Source: Streptomyces coeruleorubidus (lineage in GTDB: Bacteria > Actinomycetota > Actinomycetes > Streptomycetales > Streptomycetaceae). From it: a DNA stretch of 64,000 nucleotides. The notes below the pieces were generated by a model that was not told the DNA's origin, did not search any database, and saw only the letters and a program-made list of their open reading frames with translations. A program made the translations under genes and the position numbers. Shown here in pieces: positions 19,611-26,744 of this stretch. The stretch is taken from positions 4,526,001-4,590,000 of the forward strand of contig NZ_CP118527.1 of NCBI RefSeq assembly GCF_028885415.1, written 5' to 3'. The stretch's first letter is position 1; every line of letters starts with the position of its first letter.

Positions 19611-19661
19611 AAGTGCGCCACACCACGCCCCCGGGGCGCTGAGACTGAGCACGGTTGACCT

Positions 19662-19761
19662 GTCTCTGCGAAGTTGAGGCAGTCCCGGTCTTCGTGGGGC
19701 ATCCGCCCGCACGTCTCGCTCAATCTCGGGCATCTGGTGTGACGTCTCGATCAATCTGAGG
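19662..19761. repeat. Left-end transposase-binding repeats (L1-L3)
   Basis: Three directly oriented copies of the 18-bp end repeat lie at 19662-19679 (GTCTCTGCGAAGTTGAGG), 19713-19730 (GTCTCGCTCAATCTCGGG) and 19744-19761 (GTCTCGATCAATCTGAGG). Multiple spaced repeats at each end are the layout recognised by TnsB/TniA-type transposases. Confidence 0.85.
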
Positions 19762-19813: not shown

Positions 19814-20590
19814 GTGGAAGCGGAGGACTTCTGGCTGGAGTACGCCGACGCCCGAGGAGAGGTGCATGGCGGGCCGCTTGAGGTGATGTGGCCGACTCGG
19901 TTCGAGGCGGCCGGACAGGTGCGTGCGTTCCCGTCCTACCGCGGGCAGCGGAACTTCCCCGGCTGGTACTGGGCTGTGACCTGCTCCGAGCTGGTGGGTT
20001 ACGAGTCCTGGGTGGAACTCGGGCACTTGATGCGACTGGACGCCGAGCCGGACGTGGTGGCAGTGGCCTCGCAACCATTCCGACTGTCGTGGCGGTACGG
20101 CGGCCAGGGTCGGCGGATCAAGCACACGCCGGACTACTTCGTACGTCGGCGGGACGGCACGGCCGTGGTGCTGGACGTGCGCCCGGACGAGCGCATCGAG
20201 CCCGAGGACGCGGCGAAGTTCGCAGCGACGGCTGCGGCCTGCCCCCGGGTCGGCTGGGGCTACGAACGGGTCGGAGTGCTCGATCCGGTGTCGGTGGCGA
20301 ACCTGCGGTGGCTGTCGGGCTACCGACATCCCAGAGTTCGGCAGGAACCGGTGGCCGACGCTCTGCTGGCGGTATTCAGCGAGCCACTGGGGCTGCTGGC
20401 GGGGGCTCGGGCGGTCGGTGATCCTCTCGCGGTACTGCCGGTGCTCTACCACCTGCTCTGGCACCACGAGCTGACGACGGAGATGCGGACGGAGCGCTTG
20501 TCAGCCGCGTCGCTGGTGCGGCTGGTGCCTGCGGCCGTGAAGGAGGTGGGCTGGGATGCCGACGCGTCCGCGGCTGCTGTCGCTGGGTGA
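19814..20590 (+). CDS. TnsA-like transposon endonuclease subunit
   Basis: 258-aa protein of the TnsA-like family, which in Tn7 relatives makes the 5' strand cuts at transposon ends. A restriction-endonuclease-like core is visible: E64 in GYESWVELGH, D107 in HTPDYFVRRRDG and a DVR triad (121-123) in VVLDVRPDE, where Tn7 TnsA has QxK. The DVR variant occurs widely in actinobacterial homologues, as I recall. It starts with GTG at 19814, 53 bp inside the left repeat array, and overlaps the next gene by 35 bp. Confidence 0.85.
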   Translation: MEAEDFWLEYADARGEVHGGPLEVMWPTRFEAAGQVRAFPSYRGQRNFPGWYWAVTCSELVGYESWVELGHLMRLDAEPDVVAVASQPFRLSWRYGGQGRRIKHTPDYFVRRRDGTAVVLDVRPDERIEPEDAAKFAATAAACPRVGWGYERVGVLDPVSVANLRWLSGYRHPRVRQEPVADALLAVFSEPLGLLAGARAVGDPLAVLPVLYHLLWHHELTTEMRTERLSAASLVRLVPAAVKEVGWDADASAAAVAG

Positions 20591-22684
20591 CCGGGTCCAC
20601 TACGACGGGCGTGAGCACACCGTCGCCGCCCTGCACGGCACATCGGTTCGCCTGGTCGATGACGCCCAGGCCGCGAGCGTCGTGCTGCTCGGGCATCTGC
20701 TGGCTTCGGAGGGCTTCGCAGTGCTCAGCACCGGCCCTGCCCGCCCGCCGCTGCCCGAGGAGGGAGTACTGGACGGGCTGCCCGAGGAGGCGGCGGAGCG
20801 GGCCCGGTGGTGGCAGCGGCACCTGACCGAGCTGATGACGGGCCGCCCGGACGCGACTCCTGGCACGGCTGTGAGGCGGGAGTACGACCCGGAGGTGCAC
20901 TCGGTGCGCCAGCGGGAGTTGGCCAAGCTCGCCGAGCTGCGCGAGGCCGGTGAGGAGGTGTCTTTGAGCACCCTGCAGCGGCTGCGCACCCGTTTCGAGC
21001 GCGAGGGGGTGGCGGGGCTGGTGGACCGGCGGCTGGTCAAGCCCTCCACCGGCACGAGCCGGGCGGATCCGCGGGTGGTGGCCGCGATCGAGCAGGTCGT
21101 GAACAGCCGGACCGACGAGGCGACGGTGTCGGCGCAGGTGCTGCGGCGCAAGGTCGAACGGCTCCTGGCGGCCGAGCACGGTGCCGGAGCGGTGGCGATG
21201 CCGTCGCGGGCCGCGTTCTACCGGCTGCTGGAGGCGGTTTCGACGGGACGGCATCTGCTGGGGTCGGCCCGCACCCGCCGCTCGCTGGGCAAGCAGCCGA
21301 AGCGGATGTTCGGACAGCTGACGGCGGCCCGGCCGGGCGAGGTGATGAGATCGACTCCACGCCGCTGGACGTCATGGTGATCCACGACGACGGCGAGGTG
21401 GACCGCTGCGAGCTGACCGGGCTGGTGGACGTGGCCACCAGGACACTGGCGGCGGTGGTGCTGCGGCCGTCGACGAAGGCGGTGGACGCCGCGCTCCTGC
21501 TGGCCCGCGCGATGACACCGGAGCCGATGCGGCCGGGCTGGTCGGACGCCCTGCGCATGTCGCGCTCCGTGCTGCCCTACGCTTCGCTTCTGCCGCTGGA
21601 CGAGCGGCTGGCCCAGGCCGCCGCGAAACCAGTGATCGTCCCGGAGACGGTGGTCAGCGACCACGGCAAAGCATACATCTCGGACAAATTCCGCAACGCC
21701 TGCCGCCACTTGGGGATTTCGTTCCAGCCCGCGCACCCGAACACCCCGACCGACAAACCGCACGTCGAGCGGACGCTGGGCTCGGTGGCGACGATGTTCG
21801 CCCAGTACGTGGCCGGCTACACCGGCCGCAGCGCGGAAATGCGCGGCAAAGACCCGGCCGCGCAGGCAGCCTGGTCCGTCCACGAACTCCAGGAGCTTCT
21901 CCAGGAATGGGCCGTCGCCATCTGGCAGACCAGGCCCCATGACGGACTGCGCGACCCGCTGATGCCAGGCCGTCCGCTCAGTCCGAACGAGAAGTACGCC
22001 GCGCTGGTGTCGGCGGCCGGATACGTCCCAGTCGCGCTCAGCCAGGAGGAATACATCCAGCTCATGCCTCGCGAATGGCGGGTCATCGGCCCCAGCGGGG
22101 TGCGGATCAGCAACCGCACCTACGACGCCCACGAACTCAGCCCCTATCGGAGGCAGCCCTCGGGGGCAGGGCCGGACGGCAAGAGATGGGCAGTCCACTA
22201 CGACCCCTACGACATCTCCTGCGTCTGGGTACGCAACCACCGCGGCCAAGGGTGGATCACCGCGACCTGGCGCCACCTGCGCACTTCTCCGGTCCCGATG
22301 GGCGAGCTGGTCTTCGACCGAGCCCACCAGGTGCTGACCGAACGCGAACGACGCCGACCGCACGAGGAGGAAATCGCACAGGCCGCCGTCAAGCTGCTGG
22401 ACCGCGCGGCCGACGGTCCCGAAGGAGGAGTCGAAGGGCCCGCAGGCCAGAGCAAGGGCAGGCGCCGAGCGGTCGGTCGGCGCGACCGGAAGGTGGCCGC
22501 CCGCACCCGTGCCACCAGCACCCCCACCTGGCCTCGTCCGGAACTGCCGGCGGCCAACCAGGCACCCCAGCCCGAACCGGACCCGGACCCGGACCCCGAA
22601 GCAGCCGAGGAGAACGAAGAGGTGGCCAAGGTGGTGCCGTTGGGCATCTTCAACGCCCGTGAGGAGGCAAAACGATGGTGGTGA
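20556..22684 (+). pseudogene. tniA: TniA/TnsB-type DDE transposase, disrupted by frameshift
   Basis: Two frames together encode a Mu/TniA-type integrase. The 5' part (20556-21380) has HTH-like LSTLQRLRTRFEREGVAGLV and KPSTGTSRADPRVV. The 3' part (open from before 21347 to 22684) has the core with second catalytic Asp in VVSDHGKAYISD and Glu in KPHVERTLGSV, then a Mu C-terminal beta barrel. The first catalytic Asp (IDSTPLDV, Asp codon 21353-21355) is in the 3' frame just after the break at about 21341-21349. Total length 2129 nt is one base short of a whole number of codons, so a single-base deletion explains it. No slippery sequence is evident. Confidence 0.85.
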
Positions 22685-25490: not shown

Positions 25491-25649
25491 CTCAATCGGC
25501 AGTCCGTGTCCCCCGAACACGTCAACCACCTGATGAGCAGGCTGGCCTCATCTTGGGCGCCCAGATGGTCCGTACATCCGATGTGAGCGTGAAACCCTGA
25601 GTGCCTGTTTGCGCGGTCGGCTGATCCATCGTGGCAGCGAATACCGATC

Positions 25650-25669
25650 TTCGTGATTCATCCCACGAA
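25650..25669. promoter_or_regulatory. Inverted repeat near promoter of the Cys leader
   Basis: TTCGTG and CACGAA, perfect 6-bp arms with an 8-nt spacer, end 22 bp before the TATGGT -10 element, so they overlap the -35 region. It may be an operator; the weak -35 would fit an activated or repressed promoter. The symmetry is visible, the role inferred. Confidence 0.35.
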
Positions 25670-25703
25670 ATGGTCCGCCGACGCTGTCGGCTATGGTGAA
25701 AGC

Positions 25704-25745
25704 ATGTGTTGCTGCGCTGCCATGACCACCCGTACCGCCGCCTAG
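25704..25745 (+). CDS. Leaderless poly-cysteine leader peptide MCCCAAMTTRTAA
   Basis: A 13-codon frame, ATG TGT TGC TGC ... TAG, encodes three consecutive cysteines at positions 2-4. TATGGT at 25692-25697 places the transcription start at about the A of its ATG, so the message would be leaderless. The stop codon lies in the loop/arm of a 10-bp perfect hairpin. Leaderless short frames with tandem Cys codons act as cysteine-responsive attenuators in mycobacteria, and this one has the same features. It is too short to be significant by frame length alone; the promoter, Cys run and RNA structures are the support. Confidence 0.55.
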   Translation: MCCCAAMTTRTAA

Positions 25746-25823
25746 CGGCGGTACCCGCGGTTGCCCATAACCGAGGCCTCGTTGCTGACCCCGGCCGGGG
25801 TCAGTGCCACGACGTACCGCCGG
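25732..25823 (+). promoter_or_regulatory. Attenuator-like alternative hairpins downstream of Cys leader
   Basis: Arm A GTACCGCCGC (25732-25741) pairs perfectly with arm B GCGGCGGTAC (25745-25754). A second copy of A, CGTACCGCCG (25813-25822), is arm C and can pair with B over 9 bp instead. Between B and C lies a perfect 20-bp palindrome CTGACCCCGGCCGGGGTCAG (25785-25804). A:B and B:C are mutually exclusive. A ribosome stalled at the Cys codons or released at the stop inside A:B would decide which forms. The layout is visible; the regulatory role is inferred. Confidence 0.5.
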
Positions 25824-25893
25824 ATCAGTGTCCTGCCGGCAGCCACTCGCTTATTGCTGTGCTGCCGGGCCATCCTGCCTGATCAGGGGAGTT

Positions 25894-26562
25894 ATGTCTC
25901 AGTCGCAGCGCTTCGATTCACAGCACGAAACCCCATCCTCTTGCCCGCATAGGGCCGGCCCCATCGTCGCGCAGGATCCGCCTGTCGCCACCCTGTTCCT
26001 GATGGTCGGACTCCCCGGAGCCGGGAAAACCACCCGGGCCAAAGAGCTCGCCGCAACGCACCGGGCACTGCGGCTGACCCCAGACCACTGGATGATCCCG
26101 CTGTTCGGCGATTCGATGGCCGACGGAAAGCGCTGGGTACTCGAAGGGCGGCTCATCTCGGTCGCCCTCCAGGCGCTGCGGCTGGGGACCAGCGTCGTGC
26201 TCGACTACGGGCTCTGGGGCCGCGATGAACGGTCGGCACTGCGCTGGCTGGCACGCTCGGCCGGAGCAGCATGTCAGGTGGTCTACGTGCCCGTGGACAA
26301 GGACGTCCAGCTCGCCCGCATCGCGCACCGCCAGGCGACGACACCGCATCAGACATTTCCCATGAGCGAGACCGACGTAGACCAATGGCGCGAGCAGTTC
26401 CAGGTGCCTGACGCCGCCGAACTCGCCGGGAGGGAGATCCCCAACCCGCCGGCGGGCTGGCCAGGTTGGCCGGAGTGGGCGGTAGACCACTGGCCCTCGT
26501 GCACCGACAGCCAACAGGGCCAGCAGGGTTTCTGCCTGGCCGACAAGCCCAGGAAATCGTGA
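25894..26562 (+). CDS. Transposon cargo: P-loop kinase-like AAA protein
   Basis: 222-aa protein with Walker A GLPGAGKTT (about residues 38-46), THRALRLTPDHW and GLWGRDERSALRWLARSAGA, then a late lid-type HRQATTPHQTFPMSE. This matches the AAA_33 group of small-molecule kinases, which includes chloramphenicol phosphotransferase-like and zeta-toxin-like proteins. Substrate unknown: resistance by phosphorylation is possible but unproven. ATG 25894 follows AGGGGAG. It is preceded by the Cys leader and alternative hairpins and followed by a hairpin made of transposon end repeats. Confidence 0.82.
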   Translation: MSQSQRFDSQHETPSSCPHRAGPIVAQDPPVATLFLMVGLPGAGKTTRAKELAATHRALRLTPDHWMIPLFGDSMADGKRWVLEGRLISVALQALRLGTSVVLDYGLWGRDERSALRWLARSAGAACQVVYVPVDKDVQLARIAHRQATTPHQTFPMSETDVDQWREQFQVPDAAELAGREIPNPPAGWPGWPEWAVDHWPSCTDSQQGQQGFCLADKPRKS

Positions 26563-26569
26563 CGGAAAG

Positions 26570-26664
26570 CCTCAGGTTGAGCGAGACCCGACGAACACCC
26601 AACGTCTCGCTCAACCTGAAGCACCCCAGGTCAGAGCGCTGCCCTGCCTCACCTTCAGCGAGAC
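26570..26664. repeat. Right-end repeats (R3, R2, R1) with built-in hairpin
   Basis: Copies of the end repeat lie at 26570-26587 (minus orientation), 26604-26621 (plus orientation) and 26647-26664 (minus orientation, terminal). R3 and R2 face each other and form a stem of about 15 bp, CAGGTTGAGCGAGAC with GTCTCGCTCAACCTG, starting 10 bp after the kinase stop codon. It may double as the cargo terminator. Confidence 0.8.
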
Positions 26665-26669
26665 GGGAC

Positions 26670-26744
26670 ACCGGTGGCCGCCTGGTAGAACGCCGCCGGC
26701 GCCGGCGGATCGGGGCAGTCCAGGGTTATCACGCTCAACTTCAT
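26670..26744 (-). pseudogene. VOC/glyoxalase gene, 5' remnant cut by transposon right end
   Basis: From ATG at 26744 the minus strand reads MKLSVITLDCPDPPAPAAFY followed by QAATG, the typical start of an actinobacterial VOC (glyoxalase) protein. The frame then runs into the transposon terminal repeat and stops after four foreign codons (VPSR). The remaining roughly 90 residues of such a protein are absent on this side and are not found left of the element at 19655 either, so the insertion was accompanied or followed by a deletion or rearrangement. Confidence 0.75.

Follow-up and report, generated by a model that had tools for sequence, protein, structure and literature searches.

The short leader found upstream of a P-loop kinase gene in many soil actinomycetes looks like an uncatalogued ribosome-operated switch for that gene. 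Leader and gene were analysed in a stretch of 64,000 nucleotides from Streptomyces coeruleorubidus (contig NZ_CP118527.1, positions 4,526,001 to 4,590,000; hereafter the window). We favour, at a probability of about one half, a ribosome-operated translational attenuator in which the kinase is switched on when a ribosome dwells on a leaderless upstream open reading frame (uORF). Transcription would begin with the A of the uORF ATG, and in a leader whose uORF carries no ribosome the stretch 25721-25731 would pair with the ribosome-binding site (RBS) and start of the kinase gene, leaving little kinase to be made. A ribosome dwelling on the uORF would break this pairing; at codons 8-10 it would also cover arm A1, so that A2 would be free to pair with A3, the start site would open and kinase would be made. 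Anything that slows ribosomes on the short frame would be the trigger, be it a shortage of charged Cys-tRNA at the constant codon 3, an inhibitor of the ribosome or a general stress on translation. Both the closure of the kinase start site and its release are predictions from folding. The features of the leader and its target are as follows.

25692..25697, forward strand: TATGGT, the -10 element of a putative leaderless promoter, recognised by its TANNNT spacing
25704..25745, forward strand: leaderless uORF MCCCAAMTTRTAA with its TAG stop at 25743-25745, present in 37 of 55 relatives, with synonymous excess and a kept frame
25721..25731, forward strand: uORF stretch CATGACCACCC, able to base-pair with 25886-25896, where the RBS and start of the kinase gene lie
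25732..25754, forward strand: hairpin A1:A2 around the uORF stop codon (A1 25732-25741, A2 25745-25754)
25785..25804, forward strand: 20-bp palindrome forming a variable hairpin that lies between A2 and A3 and is missing from L005 and L014
25813..25822, forward strand: third arm A3 (CGTACCGCCG), complementary to A2
25836..25846, forward strand: arm A4 (CCGGCAGCCAC), pairing with A5 by covariation
25859..25868, forward strand: arm A5 (GTGCTGCCGG), pairing with A4 by covariation and by permutation of cognate arms
25885..25891, forward strand: Shine-Dalgarno sequence (SD) AGGGGAG of the kinase gene, within a conserved region
25894..26562, forward strand: AAA_33 P-loop kinase gene (PF13671), 222 aa, with its ATG at 25894

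With TATGGT at 25692-25697 and the ATG at 25704, a start seven nucleotides past the -10 element would fall on the A of the ATG, and promoter geometry points to this base as the start of the transcript. The leaderless distance, which the earlier note had seen in the window, is kept in all 38 leaders (the window and 37 relatives): the end of TANNNT lies 6 nt from the uORF ATG in 34 of them and 7 nt in four, against 58 of 3525 ATGs (1.6%) of the same loci taken as a control. Predicted promoter geometry in 38/38 fits the leaderless start by which the mycobacterial poly-Cys attenuators are recognised, and the spacing also fits the leaderless rule for S. lividans, in which TAnnnT stands a mean of 6.3 nt from the start and 17% of transcripts are leaderless (excerpts of PMC8079986). 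No consensus -35 element was found in 25600-26700. Directly before the -10 element, most leaders have GTCGG or GTCCG (25680-25697 in the window) and no conserved -35; this combination suggests an unusual type of promoter.

That the frame MCCCAAMTTRTAA, read in the sequence as the earlier note had it, is translated is indicated by comparative evidence, namely its codon changes and its kept reading frame. Among single-base codon differences in codons 2-10, 352 are synonymous and 287 are not, where 22.8% synonymous would be expected; the count covers 20 distinct frames of 13 residues, and the pairs are not independent. Arm A1 is in frame with the uORF ATG in 36 of 37 leaders by an automatic rule, and the exception, L029, seems to have been misplaced by that rule since its frame also ends in the hairpin. 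A translated short frame in the leader, the hallmark of uORF attenuators, is what this synonymous excess and kept frame argue for.

The distribution of the leader follows that of the kinase. Scanning species genomes for the kinase yielded 57 loci; with two tail-only fragments left out, a homologue search for the mini-ORF and its arms found the leader upstream of the kinase in 37 of the 55 inspected relatives and not in the other 18. Among these 18, L012 retains the leader from about codon 9 on, L007 and L055 retain only the last stretch before the start, in L033 the leader has decayed and in L034 it is cut by the contig end. Leaders are 150-211 nt long, and among the hosts are Streptomyces, Nonomuraea, Kutzneria, Catenulispora, Actinopolymorpha, Frankia and Actinoplanes. 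A covariance model built on the 3' part of the leader and searched with strict filters had hits in 9 of 394 genomes at the level of the family and in 8 of 394 at that of the class, the window's own genome being in both; 15 of the 16 distinct hits have this kinase after them (in L078 a fragment of it), and the exception, L075, is a remnant of A3-A4. In L075 (reverse strand, match 1501-1590) the A3-A4 piece stands without a uORF before an unrelated gene, either as a relic or as a borrowed arm. Within the order, the kinase search matched 47 of 391 genomes. Nine of 29 further loci from the order have the leader, these being all eight at 76% identity or above and L093 at 70%, and several of the nine are the same genomes as among the 57 loci; the other 20, at 70% identity or below, have no leader by the motif rule, which was also applied to the 55 relatives above and which diverged leaders could escape.

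Blastn of the leader in plasmids and phages gave no match; viral contigs hold at least 13 kinase relatives, and in the best of those listed, L112 (68%), the one examined for it, no leader was found. Against Rfam 15, the stretch 25600-25960 gave four matches at an E of 10 or less; none reaches the gathering score, and the best is CRISPR-DR20 (E 0.08) on the stop hairpin. A known Rfam family was discarded as the identity of the leader. We found no published report on this leader in the open-licence literature.

In the window, a Tn7-like element carries the kinase as cargo: before the leader and kinase come a TnsA-like frame, a TnsB-like protein spread over two frames, a TniB protein, a frame without Pfam match at the TniQ position and then a methyltransferase. 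The right end of the element is at 26670 by comparison with L002, and a left end near 19661 is a guess made by eye from TGT/ACA-type repeats. The earlier note had taken the attenuator to be transposon-borne. However, tblastn of the element proteins over the 57 loci (flanks up to 5 kb) matched only L002, also S. coeruleorubidus; elsewhere the leader accompanies the kinase in unrelated neighbourhoods, and no gene besides the kinase recurs in more than 4 of 43 of them (frames of at least 100 aa). We reject the transposon as owner of the leader, to which, on this comparison of loci, it is incidental. As to the element itself, the TnsB-like protein occupies overlapping frames (20556-21380 and 21374-22684), the same in L002, possibly a frameshift or a split transposase. 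Beside 26670 the window is without about 2.9 kb that are present in L002 (5777-8655 there), as would follow from a deletion beside the transposon or an insertion in L002. Directly after the kinase, at 26572-26619, lies a 16-bp inverted repeat (CAGGTTGAGCGAGAC-type) resembling repeats near 19700-19750; these are probably end repeats of the transposon.

The leader is structured. At 193 nt, that of the window folds with a z of -3.77, and none of 200 shuffles is as stable. Helices were tested over 36 leaders, L002 and L020 having been dropped as near copies; the relatedness of the leaders inflates all of these helix and permutation tests. A4:A5, absent from the earlier note, is the only helix with clear covariation: 93.1% of cells are paired, four pairs and seven cells are changed on both sides, none of 500 shuffles scores as high on any of five measures, and permutation of cognate against non-cognate arms gives 0/5000. 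The arms that had been proposed before are all present in the window, as a perfect hairpin over the stop codon at 25732-25754 (GTACCGCCGC-CTA-GCGGCGGTAC, with the uORF TAG at 25743-25745 inside), a 20-bp palindrome at 25785-25804 and a third arm at 25813-25822 able to compete for the second. The alternative pairings A1:A2 and A2:A3 are both kept as complementarity, with weak covariation. A1:A2 is paired in 88.0% of cells, with a score reached by 29 of 500 shuffles and a permutation p of 0.072; changes in A1 and A2 of L057 are unmatched, and the hairpin is weak or shifted in L049, L051 and L054. A2:A3 is paired in 96.9% of cells, with one compensatory change (L040), a score reached by 64 of 500 shuffles and a permutation p of 0.020. 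Covariation does not support four other candidates, which were set aside: an A3:A4 helix (96.1% of cells paired, permutation p 0.026), an A5:SD helix (79.2%), a small hairpin at the Shine-Dalgarno sequence (89.1%) and a linker:SD pairing (permutation p 0.44). A six-arm cascade (1:2, 3:4 and 5:SD against 2:3 and 4:5) fits the complementarities and was likewise set aside, resting as it does on unsupported helices.

The pairing of uORF and RBS, on which closure of the kinase start would depend, is present in 81.2% of cells over the same 36 leaders, with a score reached by 2 of 500 shuffles and a permutation p of 0.036; part of the score is trivial, coming from the start codon, and on some measures slid versions equal or exceed it. 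The pairing, which the earlier note does not mention, is not clear in the leaders whose uORF begins M-G-C. The real uORF codons pair better with the RBS than synonymous ones (mean -11.1 against -8.1 for flat and -9.6 for GC-rich codon choice), mainly in the poly-Cys group; for single leaders the test is weak (mean p 0.15 flat, 0.31 GC-rich).

The 36 leaders were also folded with ribosome footprints in place, pairing being expressed as a scaled sum of pair probabilities. When codon 4 occupies the A site, predicted A1:A2 pairing is 0.86 (0.91 in the free leader) and A2:A3 pairing is 0.11, as in the free leader. A ribosome on the Cys codons 2-4 therefore cannot act through the three-arm switch that had been claimed for it, since A1:A2 stays and A2:A3 does not form; these codons would need another route, for example the uORF:RBS pairing, which is predicted to fall from 0.63 to 0.04 with codon 4 in the A site. 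It is a ribosome at codons 8-10 that is predicted to flip A1:A2 to A2:A3, to about 0.5, and A4:A5 forms in all simulated ribosome states. The mean cost of opening the RBS is 11.97 kcal/mol in the free leader and 8.91, 8.72, 8.52 and 8.44 kcal/mol with a ribosome at codons 3, 4, 8 and 10, compared with 9.75 kcal/mol for a ribosome at the stop and 11.66 kcal/mol for an equal block elsewhere; with ribosomes at codons 3 to 10 the predicted cost is lowered in 28-30 of the 36 leaders. In the window the corresponding values are 11.62 free, 10.19, 9.46, 11.47 and 8.03 at these codons, 10.21 at the stop and 12.68 for the control block, so that here a ribosome at codon 8 alone changes nothing (11.62 to 11.47). 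The effect is small in the ten M-G-C leaders (10.62 to 9.36-10.15), and their stop state is higher, at 11.34.

Of the attenuator proposed before the kinase in the earlier note, the translated leaderless uORF and the structured, conserved leader stand, while the transposon, the cysteine signal and the three-arm mechanism are not supported in the form given there. A cysteine-specific attenuator, in which low Cys-tRNA stalls ribosomes at codons 2-4 and releases the RBS, not by the three-arm switch, is a sub-case of translational attenuation with cysteine as the signal, and we regard it as possible and no better than tentative. Codon 3 is Cys in all 41 leaders counted (37 from the set, L002 included and L020 excluded, together with L069, L072, L084 and L093) and always TGC in the 37 checked; 28 leaders have three Cys and one has four, making three or more in 29/41; a ribosome at codon 3 or 4 cuts the mean RBS cost by about 3 kcal/mol; and Cys uORFs are described in mycobacteria (excerpts of PMC4633059 and PMC9094748). 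A conserved run of Cys codons of the mycobacterial type is nevertheless not found, six of the 41 leaders having two Cys and six a single one, and homologues thus in part lack the Cys codons, an outcome named beforehand as counting against a cysteine response. M-G-C is the start of all eight leaders outside the poly-Cys kinase clade (L035, L036, L037, L046, L049, L051, L054 and L057), and of L013 and L040 inside it; the C-C form is restricted to one branch of the kinase tree, with 27 rows including L013 and L040 and an SH-aLRT of 96, in a quickly built, unrooted tree with weak deep forks. Also against cysteine specificity are the small RBS effect in M-G-C leaders, a target that is not a sulfur gene and a host genome scan that gave no second TANNNT-N6-ATG-TGY-TGY; no sulfur gene linked to the leader and kinase was found among neighbours that are partly annotated. 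Cysteine is a possible signal.

If instead the uORF sensed an inhibitor, or arrested its own nascent peptide, the stall would fall in the first ten codons and the kinase would be part of the response. Outside the hairpin arm the residues stay the same through synonymous changes, with three of its codons in use for Arg10 among the 20 distinct frames, and ribosomes at codons 8-10 are those predicted to flip the arms; inhibitor-responsive uORFs exist in Streptomyces, LSAP antibiotics stall ribosomes at the start codon (excerpts of PMC12421871), and there is a likeness to wblC-type and ABC-F leaders. This reading, which we hold to be about as likely as the cysteine one, is weakened by a peptide length that varies from 11 to 16 residues (21 in L014, where the stop is lost), by the absence of Arg10 from the 11 leaders of MCCCAPMTTTAA form, by the lack of a known inhibitor and by the finding of no gene family beside leader and kinase in more than 4 of 43 loci. 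Control of transcription, probably as Rho-dependent polarity with A4:A5 or the vacated leader stopping RNA polymerase where ribosomes are missing, seems unlikely: no helix has better support than A4:A5, which forms ahead of the RBS, and Rho has been proposed for mycobacterial cys leaders (excerpts of PMC1262725), whereas the predicted fold of the leader has few structure-free stretches and no intrinsic terminator was found in 25600-26700, which also counts for translational attenuation. Finally, the closely similar leaders in different genera suggest transfer, and a cassette recently spread among actinomycetes might keep its leader by descent with no regulation at all. We consider this very improbable, as promoter spacing, frame and A4:A5 complementarity are kept amid freely varying inter-arm sequence, and as the same features precede kinases only 60-66% identical to that of the window (L051, L035).

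The target claimed in the earlier note, a P-loop kinase, is borne out by a match to PF13671 (AAA_33) at 94.1 bits, against a curated Pfam cut-off of 27. The fold is predicted to be nearest to O-phosphoseryl-tRNA kinase (PSTK) and the polynucleotide kinases, though not decisively. Polynucleotide kinases such as T4 Pnkp and Pnkp1 have Asp-x-x-Arg after the P-loop strand; this motif is not found here, the profile alignment to Pnkp1 keeping the Asp and placing Met for the Arg, and D64, W66 and M67 are invariant among 44 kinases. The family has 3074 database relatives, and we know of no substrate for it. The kinase had no hit in PADLOC, and its matches in PHROGs, to ATPase/polynucleotide kinase, are all weak. 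A longer frame from GTG 25804 was rejected: the spacing between A3 and the kinase start does not keep to one reading frame but is spread over all three. At 222 aa the kinase of the window is 16 residues longer (26512-26559) than the 206 aa of L002, the stop codon of L002 reading CAA in the window.

Earlier work describes attenuation by uORFs, leaderless leader peptides of Streptomyces and mycobacterial Cys leaders (excerpts of the papers cited here). The mycobacterial polycysteine uORF attenuators (Canestrari et al., 2020, as cited in excerpts of PMC9094748) likewise have a leaderless short frame with several Cys codons in a row before another gene. In the cysA2 frame, as far as excerpts of PMC4633059 describe it, the Cys cluster is C-terminal and a sulfur gene lies downstream, whereas here Cys is at codons 2-4 and sometimes single, and the target is a P-loop kinase behind a conserved multi-arm leader. 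LeuL, TrpL and IlvL of S. lividans resemble it in being leaderless frames (12-18 residues) with TAnnnT promoters, some without a typical terminator; the S. lividans leader peptides precede amino-acid or tRNA-ligase genes matching their codons, and none of the eight listed is a Cys leader (excerpts of PMC8079986). From the LEU element of actinobacterial leuA, with leucine codons and a pseudoknot (excerpts of PMC1262725), the leader differs in arms, frame and target. The likeness that we propose to the wblC, are5sc and tiaA leaders is that disturbed translation of a uORF in a Streptomyces leader would switch a gene on; those leaders are described with terminators, antiterminators and known inducers (excerpts of PMC12421871 and PMC11550727), whereas the present leader showed no intrinsic terminator and has no known inducer.

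A bolder extension of the translational attenuator, which we offer as a long shot, is a mobile stress switch in which a kinase of PSTK/polynucleotide-kinase fold, acting on RNA or tRNA, is turned on by ribosomes that falter on the first codons of the leaderless Cys uORF because tRNA is uncharged or damaged or an inhibitor is present. If this were true, the uORF would report the damage that the kinase answers, and both the leader family and its kind of target would be new. A Cys-rich frame before a kinase, with an inconstant Cys run, indicates that codon content alone is a poor guide to the signal of a leader. For the kinase family, the leader provides an experimental handle: what stalls the uORF points to the purpose of the kinase.
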